Source: a virus
Direction: 5' to 3' (one strand)
Virus record (IMG/VR): IMGVR_UViG_3300002145_000080
Coordinates: 1 to 35,358 of that record
Length of the DNA stretch: 35,358 bases
The notes below the pieces were generated by a model, which did not search any database, had not been told where the DNA came from, and saw only the letters and a list, made by a program, of their open reading frames with translations. The position numbers and the translations under genes are program-made. This document shows positions 17,779 through 32,789 of the stretch, in pieces. The stretch's first letter is position 1. Every line of letters starts with the position of its first letter.

Positions 17779-18251
17779 TACTTAGCTTTTAAAAATATTA
17801 TCTGTACCAACCTTGCAGACTCTGCCTCTCCAAAGTTATCAAAAATATTGCGTGAGTGCGGAGCATCTGCGTTAAAAGCTATCATACGATTGAACTTAGA
17901 GTACATTGTAAGTAGTGGTTTCTTGTCCTCGTCATAGATAGTAGTCCCGTCATCCTCAGGTGCCTGCTCATTTAAATACAAAAGACAGGTGATATCGCCC
18001 ATCATCTCATCTGTGTGTACAAAATTTGGCTCCTCTTGATGGAGTGGTGACTTACGAATAAAGTTTAAGTCTACCTTGTAACCAAGAAATAAGTTAGTGA
18101 CGTATAAGGCAAACTCATCGTTACTATCCCTTGGCTGAATATTTCTGAAAGTGTACTCCCCGTCTGCCACGTCTTGAAATTCGTGCAAGTGTATATCTGA
18201 TACATAGGATAAAGGGTCTTTAATAATGTTGTCGAATGTGATTAGATTCAT
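17778..18251 (-). CDS. 2-oxoglutarate/Fe(II)-dependent oxygenase-like protein (157 aa)
   Basis: The C-terminal two thirds show the double-stranded beta-helix signature: a His-x-Asp pair at His79 and Asp81 (NFVHTDEMMGDITCLLYLNE), the distal His132 (NADAPHSRNIF) and a 2-oxoglutarate-binding Arg147 candidate (SARLVQIIFL). All expected iron ligands are present, so the enzyme may be active. Family members hydroxylate proteins, nucleic acids or small molecules; the substrate here is unknown. It lies between the tandem GroES-like gene (overlap 4 bases) and the terminase small-subunit candidate (overlap 1 base), an unusual place in a packaging operon. DNA modification or virion protein hydroxylation are both open possibilities. 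Confidence 0.75.
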   Translation of the reverse strand: MNLITFDNIIKDPLSYVSDIHLHEFQDVADGEYTFRNIQPRDSNDEFALYVTNLFLGYKVDLNFIRKSPLHQEEPNFVHTDEMMGDITCLLYLNEQAPEDDGTTIYDEDKKPLLTMYSKFNRMIAFNADAPHSRNIFDNFGEAESARLVQIIFLKAK

Positions 18252-18811
18252 AATTTGATTGTTATTTGGTGGTCATACATCCTATATAATTTCTCTTCAT
18301 CTACTGTAAACTCGTATTCGCTATCAGGGGAAAAGCAAACCATATCGCCTGCTTTTATACCACGCTCAAGTAAATACTCGTTAGGGTACTTCATTATCCC
18401 CATTAAAGGTTCTTCTGAAAATGGCTTCTTGATATAGCTTTCAGTTGCAGGCACAGGTTTAATAAAGCAGTATCTATCGTAAGCGTTCCACGTGGAGTCG
18501 TGCTTATACATATAGAACTGCTCGGTCTCAATAAAGAATAGGTCATCTTTAAAGAATGACTTACCACTCTTTTGCCTACCTCTCATATCGTTATAAAACT
18601 TGAATACGTTATGGTGCACAAGTAAAGTGTCACCTGCCCTGATAGGACCGTTGTAACCTAATGGAAGTTCAACGACCTCTGCAAATCGATTGGAAAACTT
18701 GTGGTCTTCCTCGGAAGTGCTGACAATAAAGTCAACACCTCCTATCTCTTTTGTATTGTCGTACCTTCTTCCATTCACAGGCTTAGCTATGAAGTAGAAT
18801 GGAGACTGCAT
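18248..18811 (-). CDS. Tandem GroES-like (two-domain co-chaperonin) protein (187 aa)
   Basis: Two successive halves resemble the GroES beta-barrel. In the first (about 5-112), 'FIAKPV', a loop with 'GGVDFIV', then 'NRFAEVVELPLG...IRAGDTLLVHHNVFKF' and 'LFFIETEQFYMYK' align in order with GroES 'VIVKR', 'GGIVL', 'RGEVLAVG..VKVGDIVIF' and 'EVLIMSESDILAIV'. In the second (about 113-187), 'CFIKPV', 'LMGIMKYPN', 'GIKAGDMVCFSPDSEYEF' and 'KLYRMYDHQITI' do the same. This is the organisation of chloroplast Cpn20. Its N-terminal loop could contact a chaperonin. A separate single-domain GroES and a GroEL are at 30178-32789. The assignment is by my own pattern alignment; a non-chaperonin barrel protein is the alternative. 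Confidence 0.6.
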   Translation of the reverse strand: MQSPFYFIAKPVNGRRYDNTKEIGGVDFIVSTSEEDHKFSNRFAEVVELPLGYNGPIRAGDTLLVHHNVFKFYNDMRGRQKSGKSFFKDDLFFIETEQFYMYKHDSTWNAYDRYCFIKPVPATESYIKKPFSEEPLMGIMKYPNEYLLERGIKAGDMVCFSPDSEYEFTVDEEKLYRMYDHQITIKL

Positions 18812-19038
18812 TAGATGTTGATGTTATATTCAATGGATATAGGAATGGTGGAGGTGAACTCTTTCCAAAGCACCACCTCCGCCTTCTCATTTATGATAAA
18901 GATTTGGATAGACTCTTTCTCAGGATTAAGCCTGATTAAATGAATCTCGTTAGTATCGCCAAGGATTTTCTGACCTACAATATAGTGCATAGCACCGCCT
19001 TTGTAGTCGGGTCCTATTGATATCTTACGAATATCCAC
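18811..19038 (-). CDS. Conserved small phage protein of unknown function (75 aa)
   Basis: The 75-aa product starts MDIRKISIGPDYKGGAMHYI and continues with 'VGQKILG...IHLIRL', an alternating beta pattern without membrane segments. I recall this N-terminal pattern in other Bacteroidota and freshwater phages but know no function. It is tightly packed: it overlaps the 128-aa gene before it by 1 base and the tandem GroES-like gene after it by 1 base, so it belongs to the pre-packaging operon. Confidence 0.6.
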   Translation of the reverse strand: MDIRKISIGPDYKGGAMHYIVGQKILGDTNEIHLIRLNPEKESIQIFIINEKAEVVLWKEFTSTIPISIEYNINI

Positions 19039-19424
19039 TACAACTCCTCCTCTTCTTCATCAACAAACTCAATACCTGTAGTCCAATCTTTTAAGAATGT
19101 AAACTTTTCTAATCCATTAGTGTTAATAACCTCAATAGGCTTAAACTCAAATTCCTTCTCGTTTAAAGCCTCAAAATCTTTGGTTAATTTCTTAACACCA
19201 TCTTTGTTAAATTTGTACTCTCCTTTTTCATCTGTTAAAAGGATGTTTTTGTCATCAGTTGCGGCATTGTCCAAGCGTAGTTCATCACGTTGCTTGTTAT
19301 ACTCTTCGTGAAAAGGCTTTACCTTCTCGTACAACTTAAATAACTTTTTCTGAATTTTGGTCTCTTGACCACCAATAACGGCATTAATTGACGCCACTAG
19401 AATGTTTAGGTCTTTGTACTTCAT
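19038..19424 (-). CDS. Charged helical protein of unknown function (128 aa), head of packaging operon
   Basis: The N-terminal half is helical and Lys-rich (KKLFKLYEKVKPFHEEYNKQ, about 26-45), the middle contains 'LLTDEKGEYKFNKDGVKKL' (about 62-80), and the C-terminus is acidic (DEEEEEL). There is no recognised domain. It is the first gene of the overlapping series running to terL and portal. The start at 19424 carries the AAATCAAATCAAATG leader found at other operon heads, and a perfect 10-4-10 inverted repeat lies 16 bases upstream, so control probably occurs here. Confidence 0.6.
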   Translation of the reverse strand: MKYKDLNILVASINAVIGGQETKIQKKLFKLYEKVKPFHEEYNKQRDELRLDNAATDDKNILLTDEKGEYKFNKDGVKKLTKDFEALNEKEFEFKPIEVINTNGLEKFTFLKDWTTGIEFVDEEEEEL

Positions 19425-19440
19425 TTGATTTGATTTTAAT

Positions 19441-19464
19441 ATAACTATGCTTATGCATAGTTAT
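19441..19464. promoter_or_regulatory. Perfect inverted repeat upstream of the packaging operon
   Basis: ATAACTATGC and GCATAGTTAT are perfect ten-base arms around TTAT. It lies 16 bases before ATG 19424 on the minus strand and 25 bases after the stop of the 105-aa gene. No T-run follows in the minus direction, so it is more likely an operator or leader hairpin than a terminator. A weak -7-like box (TACTTTTA on the minus strand) lies at 19466-19473. Confidence 0.6.
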
Positions 19465-19489
19465 GTAAAAGTAATAAATATTTATTAAA

Positions 19490-19807
19490 CTACGCAACTA
19501 CTTCGTCAGCAATTATTGTAAGATTTAATTGAGTTGCAGCCCAAGTGTAAGCCCACTCATTTGCGTCTGAAGCAGCATCCCAATCCAAGTAATCTTGTCC
19601 TGATATGGTTAATGAACCATTCACCAATGTATTATACATAGGCATTGGAGTAGGAGGAGTAGGAGTAGGAGTTATAAGCTCATTTAACTGATATTGAAAA
19701 TTTGCACTTGTAGATAAATTATCGTATGAGGACGATAATACAAATTGTGTTGCTTCTTTCTCTTCGCCATTTTGCCAAGAGGAAACGGGTTGAATTGTTT
19801 TTGCCAT
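19490..19807 (-). CDS. Fibre-associated small protein, paralogue 1 (105 aa)
   Basis: The 105-aa protein starts MAKTIQPVSSWQNGEEKEAT. A Pro/Thr-rich linker (about 46-55, TPTPTPPTPMP) separates two parts. The C-terminal part, 'LVNGSLTISGQDYLDWD...W..TWAATQLNLTIIADEV', matches the neighbouring 94-aa protein ('LVDGSLTMTGEAYVQW...WDWVAEQLNLTIIGDYV'), and the N-termini share 'IQPV..W.NG'. The two are therefore tandem paralogues. They follow the 1927-aa fibre gene and may be fibre accessory proteins (inference). No membrane or signal sequence is seen. Confidence 0.6.
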   Translation of the reverse strand: MAKTIQPVSSWQNGEEKEATQFVLSSSYDNLSTSANFQYQLNELITPTPTPPTPMPMYNTLVNGSLTISGQDYLDWDAASDANEWAYTWAATQLNLTIIADEVVA

Positions 19808-19826
19808 TTTTATTTTATTTTATTGT

Positions 19827-20111
19827 TTAAATACTACTTGATTTTACATCTTCAACAGGAGGTACATAATCCCCTATAATTGTAAGGTTTAATTGTTCGG
19901 CTACCCAATCCCAAGCGTATTGGTCAATAGTCCATTGCACATACGCTTCTCCTGTCATTGTTAAACTACCATCAACTAATCTTTCCTGACTAGCATTTAG
20001 GATGTTATAACTAAATACTGCACTTGTGTTTAAGGTTACATTGGTACCCCAAGCATTTAAATAGACTCCTTCTACTCCATTCCACATTGTTACGGGTTGA
20101 ATTTCTTTCAT
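19827..20111 (-). CDS. Fibre-associated small protein, paralogue 2 (94 aa)
   Basis: The 94-aa protein MKEIQPVTMWNGVEGVYLNA... shares its N-terminal 'IQPV..WNG' and its C-terminal 'LV.GSLT..G..Y..W...A....A.QLNLTII.D' with the 105-aa gene that follows 19 bases later. It lacks the Pro/Thr linker of that paralogue and has a short acidic, Ser-rich tail (VEDVKSSSI). It starts 1 base after the stop of the 1927-aa fibre gene, so it is probably translated with it. The function is unknown; a fibre tip or assembly partner is possible. Confidence 0.6.
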   Translation of the reverse strand: MKEIQPVTMWNGVEGVYLNAWGTNVTLNTSAVFSYNILNASQERLVDGSLTMTGEAYVQWTIDQYAWDWVAEQLNLTIIGDYVPPVEDVKSSSI

Positions 20112-20112
20112 T

Positions 20113-23100
20113 TTATTTATTTTTTAAAGTTTCTATTTCTAATTTAAGTTCTTGAATTGCTTTAACTAATACAGGAATAAGCTCACCATTAGCTATAGCA
20201 TAAACTTCTCTTGTTTTATCATACATAACTGCTTCAGGTACAATTTCTAGCATCTCTTGAGCTGAAAATCCTATGTGAAAGTTAGGGTCATCACCACTTC
20301 TTTTTTCTAATGGTAAATCATATTTATACCTAATTGTGTTCATTTTAAGAACATCTGATAAACCATAGGTGGATGCTGTAACTTCTTTTTTATATCTAAT
20401 ATCAGAAACGGAACCATAGGTAGCATATAATGTATCAGCATATACTAAACTACCGCCACCATTTCCACCTTGAATATCATACCATTGCGCCCAATATCCA
20501 TACCATAAATATCTATATCTACCTACTTGTCTTTCAGAGCCACCCCATTGAACATCACCATTACCTGAATTTAAATTAGATGCTGTAAATGTACCAGCTA
20601 TCTGCATGTTACCAGATGTAGAGTTTAAAGCAGCAATTGGTGCATAAGATTCTCTACCCCATGTAAATCCTCTACCGGCACTACTATTATCCATTTGCAT
20701 TTTAATAGAGTAATCAGTAACAGGACCATAATAGTATAGTGCAGATGCACCCATACTAATTTTATACGCATCACTACCATTCCAAAATCTAAAACCATAT
20801 CCATTACCTGCAGTAGAATTGTAATAGTTATTTATATTACTACCATTAGGAGCAGAACCTGCACTACCTGTAATTGATATTCCCCAAGTACCACTTGCAC
20901 CTGTTCCTGTTAAAGTTGGTGCATAGCTATTATAGTTTGCACTATGTAATATTTGTCTCCAAGCATACCAAGTGCCTGAATATCCTGCTCTCCATTGTAA
21001 TGTTGTACTACTATAATAATCTCCTTGTATTTGCCACATTGTATCTGATGCAGCAAGATGTAATACAGGAGCATAATTTAAATTACCACCTGCACCATTT
21101 TCATTTCTATATACAGCAGAACTTCCATTACTTACATTTACACTACCTGTACCTAAAAAATTACAACTAATATTACTTGTATATGAAGATGTATTTGCTG
21201 AACCTGCACTACCTGTAATACTAATTCCCCAAGTACCACTTGCTCCTGTTCCTGTTAAACTTGGATAATATGCATCTGTAACTTGACTTCTAAAGTGAGC
21301 AGGTGTTGATTTTCTTAAATAATCATCCCCTGTACTTTGAGTCCATATTTGACCTATAGTAGGATTCTCAGAATTACCTGCAGAAGCATTGAAATAAGTT
21401 CCTAAAATGTAAGCACCTGTAATATTTCCTGTTGCAGTTATTGTACTTCCTGATGAAATAGCTCCGTTAGCTCTAATAAGTCCACTTGTCCAAATACCTA
21501 CTCCAATAAGAGTATAAACAGTACCATTATTTGCAACTGCCATACAATGTGCAATATTATAACCTGTATTAGTTGGGTATCCCGCACTATCGTATGTCCA
21601 AGACAATCCATAAAGATTACCTATTCCACCACCTGCAGTAAGCGTGTAAGCAGCTCCCATTGCAAATAAACCTTGATGTACACTTGGATTATAAACACCT
21701 ACTAATCCATATCCTGCGCCCCCCGTATTAAGTGTAAAGTTAGTAGCTGATTGCTGCCCTGTTGCAGTTGCAGCATTACCTCCAATACTTAATCCACTAG
21801 CTGTACCTGTTAATCCTGTTCCAGCACCACTAAACGAAGATGCTGTTATTGTTGAACTAAATGTAGCTGCACCTGTTGATACATCAAGTTTTAAAACATC
21901 CGTTGCTATTTGTTCACTATATATGATATAATTATTAGATGATAAGTTTTCACGCATTCCCAAGAACCATTTAGCAGTTCCTGCCGTTTGTAAACTCATT
22001 CCATTATATGTAGTAACCGCAGTTCTATTTAAAACAAAACCATAATTATTTGTAACATTTGAAATAAACCTTGTTGCATCTATTGTGCTACTAAATGTAG
22101 CTGCACCTCTTGTATAAGTACCACCATTATCATAAACAATAAAATTATTATAGGCATTGGTAGAATTATTAAATCTAAATCCTGCAGTTCCACTTATAAA
22201 ATAAGAACTATTAGGTACATAATATATACCATTAACAGTTATATTTCCACTAAATGTAGCTGCACCTGTTGAATTATTAATGAATAATCTTGTGTCCCAA
22301 GTAGCACCATTATATAATGAAATATAAAAATCGTCAGTCATTGCAGTACCCGGAGTTGCCATCCCAATAGCAACTGCCCTAGTTACGTTTAGACTATTCC
22401 ATAATTCTAAATTTCCTGAACCCGCTATTAAACACAATGGAGAATTTCCACCTGTAGCTACTATATCTACTATATGCGTAGAACCTGCAGGTTGTGGATT
22501 TGTTGTAGAACCAAATAAAGCACTACCATTAACGGTAAATTTTCTAGGTGCAGTAATTGTTCCTATTCCTACATTGGTTCCATTATCATAAATCAAACTA
22601 TTCCCTATTGTACTTGCACCTGTGAATTTAGGTAGGTAGTTGGTAGTTCCTGTTCCTGTTACGGGATTAGTTAAAGTAGATACTGAACCATCTGCCATTA
22701 AATATTGGCTTGATGTACCACTTGTTTTTACAAATGATGTTGCAGTAACCGATGAACCAAAACTTGCACTTGAACCACTTAATGCTCTACTGATTAAAGA
22801 TACAGTTGTACCATCATCATAAAGTCCACTATTGCCTATTGTACTACCTGAACCTGTATATCTTGTTATGTATCCAGCAAAACCCGAACCTGATATTTTA
22901 CCACTAAATACATTGTAATCACTAAATGAAAGATAACCATCAACTGTTGAACTTACTTGAGTTATTGTTATATTAGGGTTTGTACTTCCACTTGAACTTA
23001 AAGGAGCAGAAGCGGTTACCGAAGTAACATAAGTACCTGCTGTTTGATATTGTGGAATGTTTAAAGTTGCACCTACTAAAGTAGCAGCACCACTTGTTCC

Positions 23101-25896
23101 TGTTGTTGTTAATGTTATTGTGGATTGTAACTGTGTAAATGTTACACCATCACCAACCATTATTTTAGGAACAACTGAAGCACCTGCTGTATTTTTAGCA
23201 TAAAACCTTAACTCATCAGTAGTTGTATAATATGCTCTGACAGTATTTGTGGTTAATGAAGTATTATTACTAATGATAAAATGATAAGTTCCCGTATTCT
23301 TTAACCATAAATTTGAAGTTAATGTTGCTGCAACAAACGAACTTGTATCACCTGCAGTTATATTAAATCCACCTAAATCAACATTTGCCGTAGCCCCTGT
23401 GTATGGAACATAACCCGTTAAAGCACCACCATAATTAGGAACATTTAAAGTAGCACCTACTAATGTAGCTGCACCCGATGTGCCTGTTGTTGTAAGACTA
23501 AGGGTAGCCTGTTTATTATTAAACGTATTCCAATCAGTACTTGAAAGGTATCCATTGCTTGCAGTACCTGACTGAGTAATACTTATTGCACCCGTTCCAC
23601 TATTATAACTAATTGGAGCCGTTCCACTCAATGAACCTAAAGTAATAAAGTTAGCACCATTGGTTAACTGACTTGTATTAGTTGGTATAGTTATAGCACC
23701 CGTAGAACTATTGTAAGCACCACTACCTGCAACAAATGATAATGCTGCACGTGCACGTGTATCTGTATAATATAAGTTTGTGACTCCTTCAGGAATATTG
23801 TCAGTTGTAAGACTTACAGCACCTGTCTGTCCGTTTACACTTACTACAGCGTCAGTATTATCTACTTGCTGCCATACACCACCATTAAATATAGCCCAAT
23901 CCCCCACAAACCAATCTGTTATACCATCAAGATTTGTAGTACCCGCCACTGAAACAATGTAGTAATATCCTTGCGTACCAACTGAACTTGTTAATGTAGG
24001 TGTGTTAGTAGCTGCGTTCCACGTTCCTTGATATATTGACCCACCAATAAGTCCGTTTACTTGGTTTTGTAATTTTCCAAAAGCAGTAAGCATCGTATCA
24101 GTTGCAAGCACTGTTCCTCCTGTGATATTAACACCGGTAAGAATTTTTCCTGTTACCGCAGCATTATCTAAAGTAACAGCAGCAGCACCGGGACCTGTTG
24201 CCGTAGCCTCACCCGTTAAACTTGTAATATAGTTGCCTGCTGCTTGCTTATTATTGAAAGTGGTCCAATCAGTTGAACTTAAATATCCATCCTGACTTCC
24301 GCTTGATTGCTGAATTGTTATGTTTGGAGTAGAGCCACCACTTGAAAATAAAGGAGAAGTAGCTGTAACGCCACCTACCTTGGTATTAAATGTTGACCAA
24401 TCAGCAGCACTCAATGCACCACGATTAGCAGCACTTGCTGTAGGCACGTTCAATGTAATCACAGGAGTTGTTGTTCCTGTAGCTACAGATGAACTTAAAT
24501 CAGTTCCTGTTGTCCCTAATGTTAATGCAGCTACCGATGTAACTGTACCAACACTCCAAGTTCTATCTGCACTTAAATCATATGCAGTGCCATTAATGGT
24601 TAACTGCCTTGATGTAGGTACATATCCACTTAAAGCAGACCCATAATCAGGAATATTAAATACACCTGTTGTATTATTGTATGTAGCTGCTCCACTTGAA
24701 CCTGTAGTTGTTAAGCTAATAGCCGTTCTTGCTCTACTATCTAAATAATAAAGATTTGTTCCTTCAGGAACAACTGTAGTATTTAATGTTTGAAAAGTTT
24801 TATCTCCTCTATAATATTGCAAAGTTGTACCTGCAGTAATAGCAGGTTCTTTACTATTAAATGTTAACCAATCAGTACTTGATAAGTATCCATCTAAGCT
24901 ACTACTTGATTGTTGTATTGAGATGTCAGGATTGACACCTCCTGTTGAAAACAAAGGAGTTGTCGCTGTAACAGACGAAACGCCTGTAGCAAGCGTCCAA
25001 GACCTATCAGCCGTTAAATTATAAGTAACTCCATTAATTGTAAGCGTTCTTGTTTGCGGTACACCACCAAGCCCCGACAATGTATAGTTAGGAACATTAA
25101 TTGTAGCCCCGACAAGAGTTGACGCTCCACTATTTCCCGTTGTTGTTAAACTTATAGAAGTTTGCTTGCCATCAAATGTAATCCAATCCGCACTTGATAA
25201 ATATCCATTCTGAGAAGCATTTGCTTGCTGAATGCTAAATACGCCTGTGCCTGAGTTGTATAACAAAGGTGACGTAGCACTATAAACAGGTAAATTTACC
25301 CATCTAACTCCTGTTACATTTGAAGATAATACTTGATTATTTGTTCCAACAGAACTTAGTCCATCTTTTAATGTCCCAAGCACAGTAAGGCTTGTAGAAA
25401 TAGTAGATGTTAATAACGCTGCGTTGTTAGCACTTAAGTTACCTGTTAATATTATATTATTTACAGCCGTATTACCTGCTGCCAACACTTGTTGTAAGTC
25501 GGGTATAACCGTTGGAATAGTGTACCACTCTACTTGAGTTCCTGTGCTTGTTAACACCTGACCTGCAGTTCCAATAGAGTTTAACCTATCATATAAACCA
25601 CCTGTAATATGAGTTTGCCCTGTTAAATTGCTGTTTAATATATTAGCGGTACTACCTACGTTTAAAGTGGTGGTAGTAATAATTCCTGTAAGATTAATAT
25701 CCTGAGTTGCAGTATTACCAAAGTCCAATACCCCTTGTAGGGTATTTCCCGGAATATTAGGGATGAACAAATTCAATAACTCACTTAACGTAAAGTTATA
25801 CGTTATATCCTCGGGGTCTCCGCCAACACTTGTACCTACTAATTTATCAGCTAGCTTGGGTACAGGGACAACTTCGTATATACTAATCTTTGACAT
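20113..25896 (-). CDS. Giant tail fibre with C-terminal S74 intramolecular chaperone (1927 aa)
   Basis: The N-terminal attachment domain (MSKISIYEVVPVPKLADKLV, about 1-50) is duplicated in the 89-aa protein just upstream. The shaft contains at least six 'YLSS.DW.TFN.K' type units, four 'LTTTG.SGA.T...G..N(V/I)P.Y' units and, near the end, two 'LTGTGASGTWGISITGSAGS' units with 'QILHSANYNSYAP', as in other fibre proteins. The C-terminus is a peptidase S74 domain: SDIRYKK with Ser1831 and Lys1836 as the catalytic dyad, then 'HIGFSAQEMLEIVPEAV' and a terminal coiled coil (AIQELKLEIETLKNK). In the S74 family the domain aids trimerisation and is cut off just before the Ser. The protein probably binds the host surface. 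Confidence 0.9.
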   Translation of the reverse strand: MSKISIYEVVPVPKLADKLVGTSVGGDPEDITYNFTLSELLNLFIPNIPGNTLQGVLDFGNTATQDINLTGIITTTTLNVGSTANILNSNLTGQTHITGGLYDRLNSIGTAGQVLTSTGTQVEWYTIPTVIPDLQQVLAAGNTAVNNIILTGNLSANNAALLTSTISTSLTVLGTLKDGLSSVGTNNQVLSSNVTGVRWVNLPVYSATSPLLYNSGTGVFSIQQANASQNGYLSSADWITFDGKQTSISLTTTGNSGASTLVGATINVPNYTLSGLGGVPQTRTLTINGVTYNLTADRSWTLATGVSSVTATTPLFSTGGVNPDISIQQSSSSLDGYLSSTDWLTFNSKEPAITAGTTLQYYRGDKTFQTLNTTVVPEGTNLYYLDSRARTAISLTTTGSSGAATYNNTTGVFNIPDYGSALSGYVPTSRQLTINGTAYDLSADRTWSVGTVTSVAALTLGTTGTDLSSSVATGTTTPVITLNVPTASAANRGALSAADWSTFNTKVGGVTATSPLFSSGGSTPNITIQQSSGSQDGYLSSTDWTTFNNKQAAGNYITSLTGEATATGPGAAAVTLDNAAVTGKILTGVNITGGTVLATDTMLTAFGKLQNQVNGLIGGSIYQGTWNAATNTPTLTSSVGTQGYYYIVSVAGTTNLDGITDWFVGDWAIFNGGVWQQVDNTDAVVSVNGQTGAVSLTTDNIPEGVTNLYYTDTRARAALSFVAGSGAYNSSTGAITIPTNTSQLTNGANFITLGSLSGTAPISYNSGTGAISITQSGTASNGYLSSTDWNTFNNKQATLSLTTTGTSGAATLVGATLNVPNYGGALTGYVPYTGATANVDLGGFNITAGDTSSFVAATLTSNLWLKNTGTYHFIISNNTSLTTNTVRAYYTTTDELRFYAKNTAGASVVPKIMVGDGVTFTQLQSTITLTTTGTSGAATLVGATLNIPQYQTAGTYVTSVTASAPLSSSGSTNPNITITQVSSTVDGYLSFSDYNVFSGKISGSGFAGYITRYTGSGSTIGNSGLYDDGTTVSLISRALSGSSASFGSSVTATSFVKTSGTSSQYLMADGSVSTLTNPVTGTGTTNYLPKFTGASTIGNSLIYDNGTNVGIGTITAPRKFTVNGSALFGSTTNPQPAGSTHIVDIVATGGNSPLCLIAGSGNLELWNSLNVTRAVAIGMATPGTAMTDDFYISLYNGATWDTRLFINNSTGAATFSGNITVNGIYYVPNSSYFISGTAGFRFNNSTNAYNNFIVYDNGGTYTRGAATFSSTIDATRFISNVTNNYGFVLNRTAVTTYNGMSLQTAGTAKWFLGMRENLSSNNYIIYSEQIATDVLKLDVSTGAATFSSTITASSFSGAGTGLTGTASGLSIGGNAATATGQQSATNFTLNTGGAGYGLVGVYNPSVHQGLFAMGAAYTLTAGGGIGNLYGLSWTYDSAGYPTNTGYNIAHCMAVANNGTVYTLIGVGIWTSGLIRANGAISSGSTITATGNITGAYILGTYFNASAGNSENPTIGQIWTQSTGDDYLRKSTPAHFRSQVTDAYYPSLTGTGASGTWGISITGSAGSANTSSYTSNISCNFLGTGSVNVSNGSSAVYRNENGAGGNLNYAPVLHLAASDTMWQIQGDYYSSTTLQWRAGYSGTWYAWRQILHSANYNSYAPTLTGTGASGTWGISITGSAGSAPNGSNINNYYNSTAGNGYGFRFWNGSDAYKISMGASALYYYGPVTDYSIKMQMDNSSAGRGFTWGRESYAPIAALNSTSGNMQIAGTFTASNLNSGNGDVQWGGSERQVGRYRYLWYGYWAQWYDIQGGNGGGSLVYADTLYATYGSVSDIRYKKEVTASTYGLSDVLKMNTIRYKYDLPLEKRSGDDPNFHIGFSAQEMLEIVPEAVMYDKTREVYAIANGELIPVLVKAIQELKLEIETLKNK

Positions 25897-26414: not shown

Positions 26415-26437
26415 TTGATTTGATTTATTTGTTTACA

Positions 26438-26445: not shown

Positions 26446-26456
26446 GTAAATAAAAA

Positions 26457-26915: not shown

Positions 26916-26920
26916 AGGTA

Positions 26921-27427
26921 TTAAATTAGGACAAAGCCATTTTTATCAACTTTATCAGTTTTATGTAATTGCTGAAGGTCAACTATTGACCTTCCAAATG
27001 TTTTTTGAAAATGCGGAGCGTCTACAAAACGCCAATCACCACCCCATTCCCATCCATATCTTTTAAAAATAGCCACCACCTCTTGCCAATCTGATTTCTT
27101 GTCACCATCAAAGTCGGACTTTGTATCCCAACTTGCAGTCTCAAAGGTACCATTACCATCTTTATCAACAAGAAGCACAATATCCACAGCCAATCCATAG
27201 TTATGGTATGACTGACCGCCTTTAGCTTTGGTAACAATAGCACCCGGTTTAGTTCTTCCTTGAGCGTATAATGCGTCCTGCTCAGCAAATGTCCTTAAAG
27301 TATAAGAAAATCTACAAGCAGCTTTACCGGTTAATTCTTTTATAATCTCGTCATATAACAAGATTGCTTCATCTCGTAGTTTGGGATGAAGCAATTGTAT
27401 TCTTTCTAAAGTTTTTTCATCTTTCAT
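26921..27427 (-). CDS. M15 peptidase endolysin, L-Ala-D-Glu peptidase type (168 aa)
   Basis: This is a peptidoglycan peptidase of the VanY/M15 type. Zinc ligands are visible as His75 and Asp82 (GGQSYHNYGLAVD) and His139 (FVDAPHFQKTFG), with Asp136 as a catalytic candidate. The N-terminal part contains the family's 'RTFAEQDALYAQGRTKPG' (45-62). Between the zinc boxes are two Asp-rich loops, DKDGNG (88-93) and DFDGDKKSDW (105-114), which look like EF-hand-type calcium loops as known in the T5 endolysin. There is no signal peptide, so export needs the holin. The start overlaps the holin stop by 1 base (TAATG). Confidence 0.9.
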   Translation of the reverse strand: MKDEKTLERIQLLHPKLRDEAILLYDEIIKELTGKAACRFSYTLRTFAEQDALYAQGRTKPGAIVTKAKGGQSYHNYGLAVDIVLLVDKDGNGTFETASWDTKSDFDGDKKSDWQEVVAIFKRYGWEWGGDWRFVDAPHFQKTFGRSIVDLQQLHKTDKVDKNGFVLI

Positions 27428-27657
27428 TACTCTTCTTTTTTAAATCCTTTTATAAGACTTGTTACTGACTCAATAGTAGTAAGACCCAATGCGGTACAGA
27501 TAATTGAAACAGTTCCCCATATAAGAACATCAGAAGTAGGGTTTTTATATAAAGTATAAAATAATATAAACGCACCCGTAATCCCAACTAATCTCTTACT
27601 TGATGTTCCGCTTTCTGAGGAAAAAAATCCACTAATCCAATTAAATACTTTTTTCAT
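27427..27657 (-). CDS. Holin (76 aa)
   Basis: The small membrane protein has two hydrophobic segments (about 22-38, RLVGITGAFILFYTLYK; about 44-65, VLIWGTVSIICTALGLTTIE), a charged N-terminus and a basic C-terminus (IKGFKKEE). The size and topology suit a class II holin that permeabilises the inner membrane. It directly precedes the endolysin with a 1-base overlap and overlaps the 43-aa gene upstream by 4 bases (ATGA), a compact lysis cassette. The assignment is by topology and context. Confidence 0.75.
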   Translation of the reverse strand: MKKVFNWISGFFSSESGTSSKRLVGITGAFILFYTLYKNPTSDVLIWGTVSIICTALGLTTIESVTSLIKGFKKEE

Positions 27658-27785
27658 CGTCCTTGACCTCTATATTGTTTTTTATAAAGTTTGCTTGTCT
27701 TGGTCTTGCTCGTTTGTGTCTTTGCCGCAAGCCCTCTTTTCTTTGGCTTGCTAATATAAGCATTGCCACTTGTTGCCTTTGCCAT
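27654..27785 (-). CDS. Very basic 43-aa protein in the lysis cassette
   Basis: A short open frame, MAKATSGNAYISKPKKRGLA followed by 'AKTQTSKTKTSKLYKKQYRGQGR', starts on the stop of the 97-aa gene (TAATG) and its own stop overlaps the holin start (ATGA). Both overlaps argue that it is a real translated gene. It is Lys/Arg/Thr-rich without any hydrophobic stretch. Similar short basic proteins starting with MA occur at 29068-29667, so it may belong with small virion or nucleic-acid-binding proteins. Function is unknown. Confidence 0.6.
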   Translation of the reverse strand: MAKATSGNAYISKPKKRGLAAKTQTSKTKTSKLYKKQYRGQGR

Positions 27786-28078
27786 TATTTTTTAATTATA
27801 AACTCAGTAATAACCTTTAATGCTCCAATTCCAACTAATGTAACTAATGCGTAGAAGTAAGATTTATATCTTTTCAGTTCTGTCTTTACGTCAGATAGCT
27901 GCTTCTTTACTTCTTTAAACTCACTTATTAAACCATTTGAATCTTTGTCAATTGGGTTGCCGGCTAAAAGAGTATATACATCTTTAAGCATAGCTTTCAT
28001 CTCAGCCATATTGCCTTTAATGGACTCTAGTTCATCTGCCATAATATCAAGTCTGCTATTTTCTTGGTTGCTCATCAT
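27785..28078 (-). CDS. Coiled-coil protein with C-terminal membrane anchor (97 aa)
   Basis: Residues 1-72 form a heptad-like helix (LESIKGNMAEMKAMLKDVYT, later 'EFKEVKKQLSDVKTELKRYKS'), followed by one membrane segment (about 73-92, YFYALVTLVGIGALKVITEF) and a basic end IIKK. This is the layout of XhlA-type holin accessory proteins, and the location at the head of the holin-endolysin-spanin series supports a holin partner or second holin. The start could be either of two adjacent ATG codons (28078 or 28075). The assignment is structural only. Confidence 0.6.
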   Translation of the reverse strand: MMSNQENSRLDIMADELESIKGNMAEMKAMLKDVYTLLAGNPIDKDSNGLISEFKEVKKQLSDVKTELKRYKSYFYALVTLVGIGALKVITEFIIKK

Positions 28079-28088
28079 AGTAGTTGAA

Positions 28089-28574
28089 TTACCAAAGTGC
28101 GTTAATAAGTGTTGCCGTTGTTCCTGTTGATTTTACTTTTAAAACTTGTACAGCTAAAATTGTTCCAACCGGAACTGCATTAAATATAACCTCATCATTA
28201 CCAAGGGTTGTAACTGCTACATTACCTGCACCACCAATAAATAAGAAAGCACCCGTATTACCGCTACCTGTTTGAGCAGATTGCTGATAAATAACATAAG
28301 TTTTAGATGTAGCTGCAAATATATCTGCATTAAGTACAATAACACTTGCACTTGATACTGATACCACAGTTGCTGCAGTACTATCAGTTATATTATAAAC
28401 AACGTCACCAACGGCTACGTTTAAGTTTATAAAGTTACCTGCTGAGTTAACCAATTGATTGGTTACAGCAGAAGTGTTTGTTCCTGTACTAATCTGTTGA
28501 ACAGAAGGAACAACTGCATTATCAGAAGGTATAACCCTTAATGCTCTTGAGAATGTTGTTTTAAAAACTGACAT
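28089..28574 (-). CDS. Small virion-type beta protein (161 aa), possible decoration protein
   Basis: The product is Ser/Thr/Val-rich without helices or membrane segments. Residues about 31-98 (GTNTSAVTNQLVNSAGNFIN, then 'VAVGDVVYNITDSTAATVVS' and 'ADIFAA...YVIY') match the inserted domain of the 322-aa connector (8809-9012) and resemble the capsid insert. The C-terminal 60 residues (GAFLFIGGAGNVAVTTLGND, then 'VPVGTILAVQVLKVKSTGTTAT') form a second beta domain of the sort found in small phage virion proteins. A capsid decoration or fibre role is likely from this domain content. It sits 10 bases before the lysis genes. Confidence 0.65.
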   Translation of the reverse strand: MSVFKTTFSRALRVIPSDNAVVPSVQQISTGTNTSAVTNQLVNSAGNFINLNVAVGDVVYNITDSTAATVVSVSSASVIVLNADIFAATSKTYVIYQQSAQTGSGNTGAFLFIGGAGNVAVTTLGNDEVIFNAVPVGTILAVQVLKVKSTGTTATLINALW

Positions 28575-28579
28575 ATTTT

Positions 28580-28753
28580 TTATTTTTTATCTTGATAAGG
28601 AAATGCTCTATTTAGTGCATCTTTTCTCGCCTTGCATCCACAATCTTTTCCTGTAACCTTGCTTATAGCTTCTGTAACTTTTTTTATTCCTGTTACAGTT
28701 GTTATTTTCTCAATTGTATCTCCAAGACCTTTGCTTTTGTTTGGTTGTTCCAT
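28580..28753 (-). CDS. Small CGC-motif phage protein (57 aa)
   Basis: I choose ATG 28753 (MEQPNKSKGLGDTIEKITTV) because it follows the stop of the 96-aa gene and carries the AATCAAATG leader. An upstream in-frame start at 28810 would overlap that gene by 47 bases. The C-terminal 'GKDCGCKARKDALNRAFPY' is a pattern I know from many Bacteroidota phages, where a 'CGC..R...LN..FPY' end follows a 'GLGDTI.K.T..TGI' helix. The paired cysteines could bind metal. Function is unknown. Confidence 0.65.
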   Translation of the reverse strand: MEQPNKSKGLGDTIEKITTVTGIKKVTEAISKVTGKDCGCKARKDALNRAFPYQDKK

Positions 28754-28763
28754 TTGATTAGAT

Positions 28764-29054
28764 TTAATATTTTCCTTTACGACCTTTAGGATTACTTGTT
28801 GTTGAACCACCCGGACCTGCCCATAAGTTTTTGCAAGCCCAATATCTTGGTGTTAATTTATCTGTAGCCGTATCGCAACTATGTCTTGCTTTAAAACTTT
28901 TACGAGCAGCATCAGAATAATTATTACCATAACCTTTTGCTCCAAAGTGGAGGAGTTTCTCCTCCCCATTGGAACAGGCTTTAACCATCTTCTTCTTCCC
29001 CGGTCTATCCGAGGCAGTAGGACGGTTACATTGCATTTTTGACTTATCAGCCAT
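28764..29054 (-). CDS. Cys/His-containing conserved small phage protein (96 aa)
   Basis: The 96-aa basic protein has seven residues of Cys and His in recurring spots: 'QCNRPTASDRPGKKKMV', 'KLLHFGAKGYGNNYSDAARK' (about 34-53), 'FKARHSC', 'YWACKNLWAGPGG' and a Lys/Gly-rich end. The central 'HFGA.GY...SD..RK.F.ARH.C....T..YW...LW' pattern is found in small proteins of many large phages and resembles the DUF5754-type pattern of viral proteins (tentative). A zinc- or nucleic-acid-binding role is plausible. It lies in a series of small basic genes. Confidence 0.6.
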   Translation of the reverse strand: MADKSKMQCNRPTASDRPGKKKMVKACSNGEEKLLHFGAKGYGNNYSDAARKSFKARHSCDTATDKLTPRYWACKNLWAGPGGSTTSNPKGRKGKY

Positions 29055-29067
29055 ATTTTAAAAGTTT

Positions 29068-29250
29068 CTAATTTCTAAAGTCTCTTCTTGAATGTCCCGG
29101 GTCTTGACGCTTGTCTTTTTCTTTTATCTCAGGAATAACATATTCATCCTTTGGGGCTTTCGCCTTAGGGATTTCTGCTAATACCTCTTCAGAAATTTCA
29201 AGGTTATCTTGAATAATTTCATCTTTTGATTTTTTTAATCCGTTTGCCAT
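29068..29250 (-). CDS. Small charged protein of unknown function (60 aa)
   Basis: The 60-aa product starts MANGLKKSKDEIIQDNLEIS, is rich in Glu and Lys, and ends 'DPGHSRRDFRN'. No domain is recognised. It sits in the run of small basic or charged genes 28580-29667, each separated by about 10-25 bases and preceded by A-rich leaders. The run is likely transcribed from the box at 29694. Confidence 0.5.
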   Translation of the reverse strand: MANGLKKSKDEIIQDNLEISEEVLAEIPKAKAPKDEYVIPEIKEKDKRQDPGHSRRDFRN

Positions 29251-29270
29251 AACTTTTTTTTAAAAATTAA

Positions 29271-29444
29271 TTACATTGCTTTCTTAGTAGCACCTTTGCC
29301 TGCACCTTTGATAGGTCCTTTAGAAGGAACACCACCTGTCATAGCTAATGGTTTTGCTTTTAATGCATTTTTAATTGAAGGAGCCACCGGTCCTGAAGGC
29401 ATTTTCATTCTTGAAGATGCCGGTAAATTTGGAGTTGATTTCAT
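29271..29444 (-). CDS. Small basic protein of unknown function (57 aa)
   Basis: An ATG at 29444 preceded by an A-rich leader (AAAAAGATG) opens a 57-codon frame: MKSTPNLPASSRMKMPSGPV, then 'KNALKAKPLAMTGG' and a Gly/Lys-rich end 'KGPIKGAGKGATKKAM'. It fills the gap between the 60-aa and 67-aa genes. The strong basic charge without hydrophobic core suggests a disordered nucleic-acid-binding or virion-internal peptide, but this is inference. Confidence 0.5.
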   Translation of the reverse strand: MKSTPNLPASSRMKMPSGPVAPSIKNALKAKPLAMTGGVPSKGPIKGAGKGATKKAM

Positions 29445-29463
29445 CTTTTTCTTTTTTATTTTT

Positions 29464-29667
29464 TTATAATGATTGTAAACCTTGTAAACCTTGTAAGCCT
29501 TTAATCCGAGTAAAGCTACTTTGTTTTGTATTTTTTTTTCTACCTAGTCTATCTTTTAACTTTTCTTTACCTTCTTGAATAGCTTTAATTTTTCTTGCTT
29601 GCTCATTCTTAAATGTAATAGCATCTAGTGTTTCTTGCAGGGTCTCTGTTTTTTTACCTTGTACCAT
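29464..29667 (-). CDS. Small charged protein with GLQ repeats (67 aa)
   Basis: The 67-aa product is helical and Lys/Glu-rich (MVQGKKTETLQETLDAITFK onward) and ends in a short tandem repeat GLQGLQGLQSL, encoded by repeated nine-base units at 29472-29500. It is the first gene of a minus-strand series of small genes. A TACATTTG box lies 27 bases upstream. The repeat may vary in copy number between strains. Function is unknown. Confidence 0.5.
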   Translation of the reverse strand: MVQGKKTETLQETLDAITFKNEQARKIKAIQEGKEKLKDRLGRKKNTKQSSFTRIKGLQGLQGLQSL

Positions 29668-29693
29668 AAATTAAAATTATTAACTTTACAGTA

Positions 29694-29701
29694 CAAATGT
29701 A
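29694..29701 (-). promoter_or_regulatory. Bacteroidota-type -7 promoter box for the small-gene series
   Basis: The minus strand reads TACATTTG (TAnnTTTG), 27 bases before ATG 29667. The 49-base gap between 29667 and 29717 must also hold the promoter of the divergent plus-strand gene, for which only a weak box (TAACTTTA near 29681) is seen. Confidence 0.5.
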
Positions 29702-29716
29702 ATAAAATTTAATGAA

Positions 29717-30181
29717 ATGAAATCACCTCCTAGCGACTACCTAAAATTTTGGCGGGTCATCCGTTATTATATGAAAGCAAAACACGGATTAGGTCAAGCT
29801 GACTTAGATATTATCCTGTTCCTTTACTCAGAAAGCTACTTTGGGAAAAAAGACTTTGATAGATTTGCCGAACTTGTAAGTTGGGAAGTAAATAGATTTG
29901 TTAGACTACACCAAGAAGGGTGGATTGAAACGTTCAGAAAAGGGCGTGGACCTAGAAGCAGAGCCTTATACCAACTATCATTCAAGGCTACCCGTGTCGT
30001 ACTCGACATCTATAGAAAACTAAATGGGGATGAAATCCCCACTAGCTTATCATCTAACCCTATGTTTTTAAAAAATGTCTCCTACAACGATAAAGTCTAT
30101 CGCAATATGATTTTGGAAATGAATAAGTACCAAAAAGCAAAAAGGATAATAGCACGAACAGCTACAAAAGATGATGATTAA
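29717..30181 (+). CDS. Winged-helix-like putative regulator (154 aa)
   Basis: This gene has plus-strand orientation within a minus-strand region. The product has 'YLKFWRVIRYYMKAKHGLGQ' (8-27), 'ADLDIILFLYSESYFGKKDF' (28-47), 'LVSWEVNRFVRLHQEGWIET' and then 'FRKGRG.....LYQLSFKATRVV', the order of helices and a beta wing of MarR-like winged-helix DNA-binding proteins. The C-terminal 50 residues are helical and basic. I associate this pattern with small regulators in Bacteroidota phages. It diverges from the 67-aa gene and converges on groES with a 4-base overlap of stop regions, so it could antagonise or regulate either unit (inference). Confidence 0.6.
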   Translation: MKSPPSDYLKFWRVIRYYMKAKHGLGQADLDIILFLYSESYFGKKDFDRFAELVSWEVNRFVRLHQEGWIETFRKGRGPRSRALYQLSFKATRVVLDIYRKLNGDEIPTSLSSNPMFLKNVSYNDKVYRNMILEMNKYQKAKRIIARTATKDDD

Positions 30182-30435
30182 ATAACAACTACCACATCCC
30201 TCTCGGATATAATGGTATATTGAGCGTCATCAATCAGCATCGTAAAGCTGTGTGCCTTATCATAGTACAACTCATCCCCTTCGTGAATAACACTTACGTC
30301 AGTGCCGGGGGCTATCACTACACCACGCTTGTAGCGTAGTTGATTGGTATCCTCACCTGACAAAATCAATCCCGACTCAGTCTTAATATTTTCTTGAACG
30401 TCTTTGACAATCAAGTATTTACCTATTGGTTTCAT
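30178..30435 (-). CDS. groES: GroES-like co-chaperonin, single domain (85 aa)
   Basis: The product MKPIGKYLIVKDVQENIKTE continues with a mobile loop 'SGLILSGEDTNQ', then 'RYKRGVVIAPGTDVSVIHEG', 'DELYYDK' and 'YTIISERDVVVVI'. This matches the order of GroES elements: VIVK strand, hydrophobic tripeptide in the loop (LIL for the usual IVL), RG.V...G, G D.. and a terminal 'S..D...' strand. At 85 aa it is slightly shorter than bacterial GroES (about 95). It would cap the phage GroEL or the host's. It is last in the operon and overlaps the 79-aa gene by 1 base (TAATG). Its stop overlaps the convergent winged-helix gene by 4 bases. Confidence 0.85.
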   Translation of the reverse strand: MKPIGKYLIVKDVQENIKTESGLILSGEDTNQLRYKRGVVIAPGTDVSVIHEGDELYYDKAHSFTMLIDDAQYTIISERDVVVVI

Positions 30436-30674
30436 TATAAATTTTTAATTAATTCAATAAATTCTTTATATTCTAAGAGTGTTATTACGGTTACTCCACC
30501 CAAATATATTTCAGTGTACTCATTGTCATTGTTATAAGTTGGATGTGCTCCATCAAAATTTACCAAATAAAATGGTCTAACCTCTAACTCACTCCAATCA
30601 AACTCTACCCCCATATCTCTATTTTGGCGAGTATCTGAGTTATGATAAAGTATATTTATTTCTATTCCTTTCAT
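30435..30674 (-). CDS. Small protein of unknown function in the chaperonin operon (79 aa)
   Basis: I choose ATG 30674 (MKGIEINILYHNSDTRQNRD). A TTG at 30680 overlapping the preceding stop is possible and would add 2 residues. The product has alternating beta and acidic stretches, including 'FDWSELEVRPFYLVNFDGAH' and 'YTEIYLGGVTVITLLEYKEF', and no hydrophobic segment long enough for a membrane. It stands 2 bases after the phosphoribosyltransferase-like gene and overlaps groES by 1 base. No family is recognised. A helper of the chaperonin or of the neighbouring enzyme is possible by context only. Confidence 0.5.
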   Translation of the reverse strand: MKGIEINILYHNSDTRQNRDMGVEFDWSELEVRPFYLVNFDGAHPTYNNDNEYTEIYLGGVTVITLLEYKEFIELIKNL

Positions 30675-30676
30675 TT

Positions 30677-31189
30677 TCAATGATTATTTTCCATCTCCCA
30701 CCAAAAAGTTAAGTCCTCTGTGCTGTCGTTATAATACTCACCTACATAGTTTGAGTTATACACAGACCCTACATTCTCAAACATTGCCACAGTGTATATG
30801 TCAGTGATGCCCATATCTTTTAAATACTTATCTAAAAAAGTATAGTTGCCTCCTCTGATAATCCCGGCTTCAACTAATAATACCCTTTTGTTTTGTAGCT
30901 TATGCCCATAAATATCCATAATACTATGAAGTTCACCTAAGTATTTATCGTCCCAATGCTCGTCAGGATAGGGTACATCGACCCCGAATCCATCACAAAT
31001 CTCCCCATTTGAACTAAGTAAATGCCTTAAAGTCTGACCAATAATGGATGAGTAGTCTGTAGATACCGTTATGATAACTGTATTGTCAGCATTAAATCCA
31101 TCCCTGATTAACTCAGTAGCTATGTTGTCTATTAAAAACTGTTCGTCATTGAACGATACGTTTAATATTTTTTTATTGCTGTTGCTCAT
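30677..31189 (-). CDS. Phosphoribosyltransferase-like protein (170 aa)
   Basis: I choose ATG 31189 (MSNSNKKILNVSFNDEQFLI), which overlaps the groEL end by 17 bases; an earlier in-frame ATG at 31216 is less likely. A Rossmann-like beta-alpha order is suggested. Residues 102-116 (RVLLVEAGIIRGGNY) align with the PRPP-binding loop of type I phosphoribosyltransferases (VLLVDD.I.TG.T), and the C-terminus 'TEDLTFWWE' resembles the 'FPWE' end of phage members. The second acidic residue of the loop is Ala (Glu107-Ala108), so activity may be lost or changed. It lies between groEL and groES. It may act on nucleobases or be a non-catalytic binder. Confidence 0.5.
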   Translation of the reverse strand: MSNSNKKILNVSFNDEQFLIDNIATELIRDGFNADNTVIITVSTDYSSIIGQTLRHLLSSNGEICDGFGVDVPYPDEHWDDKYLGELHSIMDIYGHKLQNKRVLLVEAGIIRGGNYTFLDKYLKDMGITDIYTVAMFENVGSVYNSNYVGEYYNDSTEDLTFWWEMENNH

Positions 31190-32789
31190 ATGTACGTGCC
31201 ATTGTAATGATTGCATTAGTGCTAAGAATTGTTACCGCTACGCTGACAGCATTTTGTAACGCTGACCTTGTAACTTTCAATGGGTCAATAACACCCATCT
31301 CAATCAAGTCACCCATCTGACCGGTCTTAAGGTTGTATCCGTGCCCAACAGGAGTACCTTCTTTATAGACGTCACTTGGTTTAAGTCCTGCATTAGCCAA
31401 TATCTGTTGGAATGGTGACATCAATGCATTGCGGACAATACTTAATGCAGCATTGTACTCTAAACTTTTGGTCTCCTCACCTAACTCAGCACTCTCGTCA
31501 AGTAGTGCCTTACCCGCACCCGGCAGTATCCCTTCCTCAAGAGCAGACCTTACTGCACACACAGCGTCATCAACCCTGTCGTACAACTCTTTCTGCTCAA
31601 GGTCAGTCTGACCACCAACAAATATCACACCTATGCCACCCGTAAGTGATGCAATACGCTCCAACAAAAAGTCTTTGTCACCTTTCTTAGTCGCTTCCTT
31701 ATGTGCATCCCATAATTGCTTCACTCTCTCCTCAACCAACTTCTCGTCAGCTTTAGCTGTACTTCTGATAATAACAGTTTTGTCTTTACCAACAATAACT
31801 TTGCTTGCGTGCCCTAAGTCACCATAGTTAATATGGCTTAAGTCATCACCTGTCTTCTCACTATAGTAAGTAGCACCCACACTAATTGCAATGTCTTGCA
31901 TCAACTCGTGCTGCTTGTATCCAAAGTTTGGTGGAGGCACAGCCACCACTTTTAAGTTTCCTTTTACTGAGTTTGCTGCAAGTGTATTTACCACGTTAAC
32001 GTTGCACGGAGAAATAATCAACAGCTTCTTCCCTTCGGAAATGATTGGTTTCAACACATTCTCAATCTGTAAAATATTTGCTATCTCAATGTCACATACC
32101 AAAACCATAGTGTCTTCAAAGACACACTCATCTTTCTTTTGGTCGTTGATAAACATTGAACTCAAATACCCTCTGTCAAACTTTAACCCTTTAGTTGTCT
32201 CTGCATATGTCTCATTAGTCTGACTTCTCTCCACAGTTACAATACCTGTCTTACCAACTTCCTTATAAACCTCCGCAATAATGCGTCCTATCTCTCTGTC
32301 ATTGTTAGCTGACAATGCCGCCACATCCAATAACATTGCACTACTAACTTTCTTTGCCTTACGTCTTAACTTCTCCACCACCTTGTTACTTATGTCCACC
32401 ATATGTCTCAACACCTCCGTTCTGTTCATATCCTCTTTGATATGCTCAAGACCACCAAGTACCAATCCCTCTGTCAAAACAATAGCTGTTGTCGTTCCAT
32501 CACCCGCAGCGGTAGCTGTCTTGTCTGCCGCCTCCTTCATCATCTTAACCGCAAGGTTCTCTGATGGGTCAATAAGGTCAATTGACTTTGCAACTGTTAC
32601 ACCATCCTTAGTAACCGTGATGCCGTGTGTGTGATGTGGACTCTCAATGAGTACCGTGTTACCACTTGGTCCAAGAGTTGACTTAACAGCCTTTGACATC
32701 TTGATGACACCACTGATAAGTTTCTTCCTTCCTTCACTTCCGAACTGCAAATCCTTGGGCGAGTACCCAATTCCTGATGTTTCTACCAT
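31173..32789 (-). CDS. groEL: GroEL-type chaperonin (538 aa)
   Basis: This is a full-length group I chaperonin. I choose ATG 32789 (MVETSGIGYSPKDLQFGSEG), which has the AATCAAATG leader and a promoter box 27 bases upstream; the longer frame from 32819 would run through that region. The ATP site is complete: TLGPSGNTV (38-46), TKDGVTVAKS (60-69), GDGTTT (96-101), and the Asp of 'RVDDAVCAVRSALEEGILPG' that matches E. coli Asp398. 'LTGGIGVIFVGG' and 'GDLIEMGVIDPLKV' are also typical. The C-terminus is QQQ rather than the GGM repeats of E. coli. It probably folds phage virion or replication proteins. A copy of the 16-bp inverted repeat lies inside the gene at 32110-32125. Confidence 0.95.
   Translation of the reverse strand: MVETSGIGYSPKDLQFGSEGRKKLISGVIKMSKAVKSTLGPSGNTVLIESPHHTHGITVTKDGVTVAKSIDLIDPSENLAVKMMKEAADKTATAAGDGTTTAIVLTEGLVLGGLEHIKEDMNRTEVLRHMVDISNKVVEKLRRKAKKVSSAMLLDVAALSANNDREIGRIIAEVYKEVGKTGIVTVERSQTNETYAETTKGLKFDRGYLSSMFINDQKKDECVFEDTMVLVCDIEIANILQIENVLKPIISEGKKLLIISPCNVNVVNTLAANSVKGNLKVVAVPPPNFGYKQHELMQDIAISVGATYYSEKTGDDLSHINYGDLGHASKVIVGKDKTVIIRSTAKADEKLVEERVKQLWDAHKEATKKGDKDFLLERIASLTGGIGVIFVGGQTDLEQKELYDRVDDAVCAVRSALEEGILPGAGKALLDESAELGEETKSLEYNAALSIVRNALMSPFQQILANAGLKPSDVYKEGTPVGHGYNLKTGQMGDLIEMGVIDPLKVTRSALQNAVSVAVTILSTNAIITMARTYEQQQ
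32110..32125. repeat. 16-bp inverted repeat copy inside groEL
   Basis: The plus strand reads GTGTCTTCAAAGACAC, the reverse complement of the copies at 10225, 17292 and 33961. It lies within coding sequence (codons for VFEDT in groEL). Confidence 0.85.

Follow-up and report, generated by a model that had tools for sequence, protein, structure and literature searches.

How could a co-chaperonin made of paired domains close a chaperonin ring of seven? Even domain numbers set against a seven-fold GroEL are the puzzle posed by double-domain co-chaperonins, and virus record IMGVR_UViG_3300002145_000080 raises it for phages. The window analysed here, a stretch of 35,358 bases with the majority of its genes on the minus strand, encodes a GroEL, a single GroES and, across a gap of 11.4 kb from the latter gene, a 187-amino-acid (aa) protein whose two halves both resemble GroES (the tandem protein). 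An original prediction, made from the letters of the window, had proposed two kinds of co-chaperonin, and both kinds are indeed recognised: the single GroES by Pfam Cpn10 (2e-11, 44.2 bits against a cut-off of 21.1) and the tandem protein by the profile phrog_13932. The three open reading frames (ORFs) that it listed exist, but all of them lie on the minus strand, the plus-strand frames at the same places being riddled with stops, and the end given for GroEL, 32789, is an internal ATG. This ATG is a possible start; the gene extends to 32819 if the upstream TTG is used instead. The features concerned are as follows.

18248..18811, minus strand: tandem (two-domain) GroES-like protein, 187 aa, identified by profile, AlphaFold2 model, fold matches and relatives
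18488..18811, minus strand: first GroES-like half, residues 1-108
18248..18487, minus strand: second GroES-like half, residues 109-187 plus the stop
18692..18754, minus strand: putative mobile loop of the first half, residues 20-40, with a stretch modelled at low confidence
18722-18730, minus strand: hydrophobic triplet of the first-half loop, residues 28-30
18407..18451, minus strand: putative mobile loop of the second half, residues 121-135, lacking the G-x-hydrophobic triplet of GroES, at a dip in model confidence
30178..30435, minus strand: single GroES, 85 aa, with loop TESGLILSG and a shortened roof segment (PDB match 1wnr_A, 1.7e-7)
31173..32819, minus strand: group I chaperonin GroEL (phrog_5725, 1.3e-132)

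The AlphaFold2 model of the tandem protein, built from a 69-sequence alignment, has a mean predicted local distance difference test score (pLDDT) of 80.9 and a predicted template modelling score of 0.78. The stretches with pLDDT below 50, residues 32-38 and 128-132, sit at the positions expected for GroES mobile loops. The top Foldseek rows for the full model are 7ekq_R and 7ekq_Q (213-214 columns), followed by GroES/Cpn10 chains. VIA-align also places first 7ekq_R, a chloroplast chain whose entry name is Cpn20 co-chaperonin subunit (Z 10.6, root-mean-square deviation 4.3, 156 residues, 13% identity); 7ekq holds one Cpn11 chain and two Cpn20 chains. Among the 50 matches listed by VIA-align, 7ekq_R is the only one aligned over the entire protein (1..187), and rows 2-26 cover the second half alone, with Z of 8.0 (Cpn10 1p3h_A) or lower. 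Modelled alone (residues 1-111), the first half has a pLDDT of 84.1, and its top 14 VIA-align rows are GroES, Cpn10, gp31 and Cpn20 chains with Z from 7.5 to 5.8. A GroES β-barrel is predicted in each half, the highest Z values (8.0 for the second, 7.5 for the first) falling in the middling range of the tool. When predicted structures of viral proteins are searched, the 'chaperonin cpn10' of phi18:3 is the best match that carries a name and aligns over the whole length (E 1.3e-12). The fold listings hold Foldseek-ranked entries only, and the absence of a family from them carries no meaning. As modelled, the tandem protein is composed of two GroES domains within one chain, in an arrangement that aligns end to end with Cpn20.

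Profile searches bear on the same assignment. The 187-aa protein matches phrog_13932 ('co-chaperonin GroES', 200 positions) at 1.8e-21 over residues 16-178, and this profile is matched by all 69 members of the family alignment (A3), which consists of the window and 68 loci with near-identical ones left out, 52 of the 68 rows coming from the window's own clade. The 'AGD' turn that had been noticed in each half is present in both (IRAGDTLL, IKAGDMVC). phrog_13932 is also matched by the window's single GroES, through the second half of the profile (positions 114-198, 5.8e-4), which links the two kinds of lid. When compared by hhalign with a profile of phage single GroES, the second half scores 38.1 with a probability of 92% (maximum of 40 shuffles, 14.05) and the first half 28.8 with 59% (maximum of 40 column shuffles, 18.7). 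That profile comprised the window's protein and 18 relatives, collected by BLAST searches that used the window's and the E. coli protein as queries; the single GroES of L134 and L141, missed by BLAST although they appear in a separate listing, were left out. In the PDB, hmmsearch with the tandem family profile finds GroES at 1.2e-4 through positions 115-186, that is, through the second half only; bacterial GroES and Cpn11 are found by this profile and Cpn20 is not, and phmmer of the 187-aa protein against the PDB gives nothing meaningful. Moreover, the second half passes the Pfam Cpn10 cut-off of 21.1 bits in seven Cellulophaga-type records, G016-G022 (24.1-34.2). Sequence profiles and predicted fold together firmly identify the second half as GroES, and predicted fold with a moderate profile match assigns the first half to GroES as well. 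Neither an unrelated predicted fold in one of the halves nor a lack of GroES-family profile hits was found, and the tandem GroES reading of the original prediction is retained.

Several results tell against this assignment. A Pfam search at E<=0.01 finds nothing in the 187-aa protein, which for this reason is not filed as a PF00166 member by sequence alone; just 5 of the 69 family members reach Pfam Cpn10. The fold matches of the first half are modest, the next VIA-align row being a reductase (Z 5.6) and the best Foldseek E being 0.026, with none at 0.001. The single-sequence E. coli GroES is unrecognised by the half profiles (hhalign probability 3.6% for the first and 16.9% for the second). 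Nor do the profiles of the two halves match one another (2.2%), which gives no indication of a recent internal duplication. Apart from these comparisons, residues H66-H67-N68 of the tandem protein (18608-18616) are near-invariant, being conserved in 67, 67 and 69 of the 69 members, respectively; they are not known as a feature of GroES.

The single GroES and GroEL of the window share a strand, with two small ORFs (81 and 179 aa) between them. The single GroES finds Cpn20 in the PDB at 2.8e-5 and stays below the cut-offs of the stricter NCBIfam GroES models (best 38.7 against 109). GroEL matches Pfam Cpn60_TCP1 at 2.2e-59 (201.9 bits against 34.3) and scores above the cut-off of NCBIfam subfamily NF009487 (495.2 against 352) and below that of the equivalog TIGR02348 (456 against 582.1). 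It retains D52, D87, D398 and D495, which we take to be the catalytic aspartates. It is also altered at K105, A109, E434, R452, E461 and V464, presumably inter-ring contacts, and has no GGM tail; by its sequence, the phage GroEL could be a single-ring chaperonin.

Whether the two lids belong together was surveyed in 32 records chosen for holding the tandem gene. The co-occurrence of all three genes in related phages, proposed earlier as a check, is borne out for the single GroES, which is found in 28 of these records, but GroEL is found in only 23. The four records without a single GroES appear to end before the locus that it occupies in relatives; L145, among the loci checked for this, has a slightly different gene order and likely ends before the GroES locus. 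The nine records without GroEL are the four that end early and five that keep both lids, namely the Pachyviridae-type G019-G022 (phi18:3, a circular complete record, and three close relatives) and L090, whose completeness is uncertain. Both lids are kept where GroEL is absent, so that what stays constant is the pairing of a single with a tandem GroES, as in chloroplasts. The tandem gene sits with packaging and head genes, and the single GroES, together with GroEL when present, in a separate cluster; in an elemo phage, GroES/GroEL lie on the strand opposite to the tandem gene.

The mobile loops and the roof segment bear on how such lids might work. In the first half, residues 28-30 are all hydrophobic in 61 of the 69 members, the majority of which come from a single clade, and some relatives have textbook-like GroES loops there (NSGLVLN in L114, DSGLILN in L116). 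The second-half loop reads GSIIV in L090, a record without GroEL, and a similar run, PSLIYI, is found in phi18:3. These sequences hint at a loop shape that depends on the GroEL employed, and it is suggestive, over few lineages, that canonical loops persist in both halves in phages relying on a GroEL from the host. The second-half loop patterns of L090 and L092, neither of which has GroEL in its record, are GroES-like or near-GroES-like. Between the strand and the GD turn, where we take the roof to lie, the tandem halves have 16 and 18 residues and the single GroES has 16, as against 24 in E. coli GroES (counted by eye); relative to Thermus Cpn10, nine positions are absent at the roof of the single GroES. 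As judged from these alignments and counts, all three phage domains have a shortened, gp31-like roof segment.

Double-domain co-chaperonins have been described for chloroplasts and the apicoplast (PMC5780408). Arabidopsis Cpn10(1) is reported to be active solely when mixed with Cpn20 (PMC4242682), Chlamydomonas Cpn10 to assist GroEL only together with Cpn20 (PMC5904260), and a CPN11/20/23 heterotetramer to have been observed on algal ClpP (PMC8889267); seven domains result when one single chain and three double chains form a tetramer. The phage protein is like chloroplast Cpn20 in its two head-to-tail GroES folds and in coexisting with a one-domain partner, which is Cpn10 in chloroplasts, but it differs in its degenerate second-half loop (in the window's clade) and its shortened roof segment. 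With T4 gp31 it shares a phage-encoded GroES fold (Z 6.5 for the second half and 6.3 for the first), a shortened roof and a link to capsid genes; gp31, however, has one domain and uses the host GroEL, whereas here there are two lids, often with a phage GroEL. T4 gp31 is described as having no roof loops and is believed to help GroEL-gp31 fold gp23 (PMC6318259). The window's single GroES belongs to the GroES/Cpn10 family PF00166, whereas the tandem protein does not qualify by Pfam alone.

Quite possibly, although we advance it tentatively, the tandem protein acts as a Cpn20-like late co-chaperonin that docks on GroEL and, with the single GroES, forms a roofless lid of seven domains over head proteins. 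Docking would occur through the first-half mobile loop, on either the phage's own GroEL or the host's, and three tandem chains and one single GroES would co-assemble into seven domains that close the seven-fold ring, like chloroplast Cpn10/Cpn20. With the roof segment shortened in all three domains, such a lid would be open at the top, as gp31 is, and suited to folding a bulky head protein, the most likely client being the putative 472-aa capsid protein. Docking on GroEL, a ring of 3+1 chains, an open roof and a capsid client are our inferences. It may also be, though we hold this with considerable reserve, that phages evolved a two-gene lid of the Cpn10/Cpn20 type independently of chloroplasts, in which a roofless 3+1 hetero-ring with unequal loops would give an asymmetric cage tuned to head proteins on phage or host GroEL. 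If true, a widespread phage family with single-plus-double pairing could be an independent solution to the domain-number puzzle, and the pairing would explain why two lids are kept by some phages without GroEL. As the proteins are small and phage-host pairs can be cultured (Cellulophaga, Flavobacterium), ring make-up, asymmetry and client are testable.

Other observations count against such a lid. The second-half loop has a GroES-type G-x-hydrophobic pattern in just 2 of the 69 members. In the phage GroEL, L234 is replaced by E and both V263 and V264 by A at what we take to be GroES-binding positions; these changes may be matched to the altered lid loops, or they may argue against docking of the ordinary kind. 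The 28 paired records represent about six lineages and are consequently not 28 independent cases. Furthermore, Vibrio phages with a GroES match fall outside the 86 records that match the tandem protein, and the single GroES thus does not need a tandem partner.

The surroundings of the tandem gene bear on the alternatives. The earlier suggestion of head assembly rested on its place just upstream of the packaging genes and next to an oxygenase. The former link holds throughout, for the gene of the terminase large subunit (TerL) lies on the same strand, 0-1.84 kb downstream, in all 110 loci with enough DNA (114 loci, 4 set aside for short downstream DNA); the latter is weakened, for an oxygenase is detected beside the tandem gene in only 47 of the 110 (window's copy as query, 1e-4). 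The genes of this module in the window are listed below.

17778..18251, minus strand: 2-oxoglutarate-Fe(II) (2OG-Fe(II)) oxygenase-like ORF, an optional neighbour (Pfam 2OG-FeII_Oxy_3, 3.6e-5, 25.1 bits, below the cut-off of 27)
17491..17778, minus strand: 95-aa ORF preceding terL, at the small-terminase position (role from position only; no match in a PHROG search at 0.01)
15267..17516, minus strand: terminase large subunit (phrog_6681, 5e-178)
12835..15270, minus strand: portal protein (phrog_6547, 4.7e-142)
10264..11682, minus strand: virion structural protein, 472 aa (phrog_13704 'virion structural protein', 3.6e-108)

Judged by its position, the 472-aa protein is likely the major capsid protein, and it is the candidate folding client, both its capsid identity and its role as client being inference.

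Among the alternatives, the one that survives best is that the tandem protein alone is the lid, its three or four chains providing six or eight domains and taking the place of the single GroES late on. Homo-oligomeric Cpn20 and concatemers of six to eight domains are reported to function with chaperonins (PMC5780408), and a location among packaging genes, apart from GroES/GroEL and on the opposite strand in an elemo phage, fits different expression times. We nonetheless think it somewhat unlikely, as it leaves unexplained why the single GroES is kept in 28 of 32 records, apparently in all that reach its locus, even without GroEL. Alternatively, the GroES fold may have been taken over for work in head assembly or packaging, as a scaffold associated with TerL or the portal, for instance, with loss of GroEL docking. 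The strict terL neighbourhood, the near-invariant H66, H67 and N68 and a second-half loop mostly without the docking triplet would suit such a role, but the first-half triplet remains hydrophobic in 61 of 69 members, the single GroES accompanies the tandem gene in 28 of 32 records, the other four being apparently truncated, and the phi18:3 tandem gene is without the tandem mass spectrometry (MS/MS) note borne by the portal and other structural proteins. Recruitment of this kind is distinctly unlikely, and a virion structural role for the tandem protein is disfavoured. The original prediction had allowed for a GroES-derived virion-assembly factor; between such a factor, if it has lost its docking on GroEL, and a co-chaperonin, the latter is more likely, since the first-half triplet is kept and the phi18:3 gene is annotated by similarity only. 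It is very improbable that the annotation is an artefact of two unrelated β domains merely resembling GroES, for although the halves are only weakly similar to cellular GroES, as the E. coli comparison indicates, profile, fold and neighbourhood evidence agree independently. Scarcely credible is a ring of single and tandem chains that caps the seven-fold host ClpP and blocks proteolysis in infection, as on algal ClpP: the best structural match stems from a ClpP-co-chaperonin complex and both lids persist in phages without GroEL, but 7ekq is the sole Cpn20-containing entry among the matches listed, which makes that match uninformative on ClpP.

The tandem gene, read here as encoding a co-chaperonin, is under purifying selection and is not a chance ORF. 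Its match is a stop-free open frame in all 32 records, and the ratio of nonsynonymous to synonymous substitution rates (dN/dS) to relatives is 0.04-0.11 in 10 of 13 pairs (dS 0.5-3.1), the remaining three being saturated and dropped. At E up to 1, the tandem protein matches 86 phage records, namely 68 from Flavobacterium, 15 from Cellulophaga, one from Maribacter, one uncultured and one weak match to a Mycobacterium phage (E 0.2); the nearest is MW202828 (74%). At least 600 IMG/VR stretches encode a relative. Two named families of Cellulophaga phages, Pervagoviridae and Pachyviridae, carry the gene in the same gene order. Complete records of relatives measure about 60-77 kb, so the comparison with large phages drawn earlier does not apply. 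A locus search with a closer alignment set added five loci only (L097-L101), and a scan using the Maribacter tandem protein found no relative. Seven relatives occur in metagenome-assembled genomes of bacteria and one archaeon, which are best read as phage DNA in bins. One of these contigs (L149), 1.05 Mb long and titled Candidatus Aenigmatarchaeota archaeon bin1364, contains a 68% relative and is probably a chimeric assembly or holds an integrated phage.

Many public records already label these proteins 'co-chaperonin GroES' (phrog_13932) or 'chaperonin cpn10'. The 'co-chaperonin GroES' of the isolates Cellulophaga phi38:1 and phi18:3, Flavobacterium elemo and Maribacter Panino belongs to the same family and occupies the same place before terL; the window's tandem protein is 21-38% identical to the Cellulophaga, elemo and Panino proteins, whose records carry the GroES or cpn10 label without the two-domain architecture. 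'Chaperonin cpn10' is named as a core protein of Pervagoviridae, without mention of which of the two lids is meant (PMC8776804). Related marine phages are known to carry GroEL (PMC5332604), and the phi38:1 GroEL is reported to have borne methylation marks in infected cells (PMC13288928). For Panino, GroEL and GroES homologs only are reported (PMC11590407), and chaperonin terms are absent from PMC7077304. No description of a phage tandem GroES architecture or of single-plus-double pairing was found in the titles and abstract starts of the Creative Commons-licensed PMC articles listed. What appears to be new here is this architecture and this pairing in phages whose cultured relatives infect flavobacteria.

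Some minor observations concern neighbouring genes. As a constant partner of the tandem gene, the oxygenase was rejected on the count of loci given above; the named relative closest to the window does not have it at this position, and the spread of gap sizes suggests that some diverged copies were missed. A distant oxygenase relative (28% over 114 aa) lies near GroEL in Maribacter phage Panino (L086). Positions 20113-25896 encode a repetitive fibre-like protein of 1927 aa, with no match in a PHROG search at 0.01, whose C-terminus presumably resembles an endosialidase-type intramolecular chaperone. On the plus strand, a 154-aa ORF (29717-30181) is convergent with GroES and overlaps its end; MW202828 has in this position an ORF with the annotation repressor protein, and L147 has a 76% copy there.

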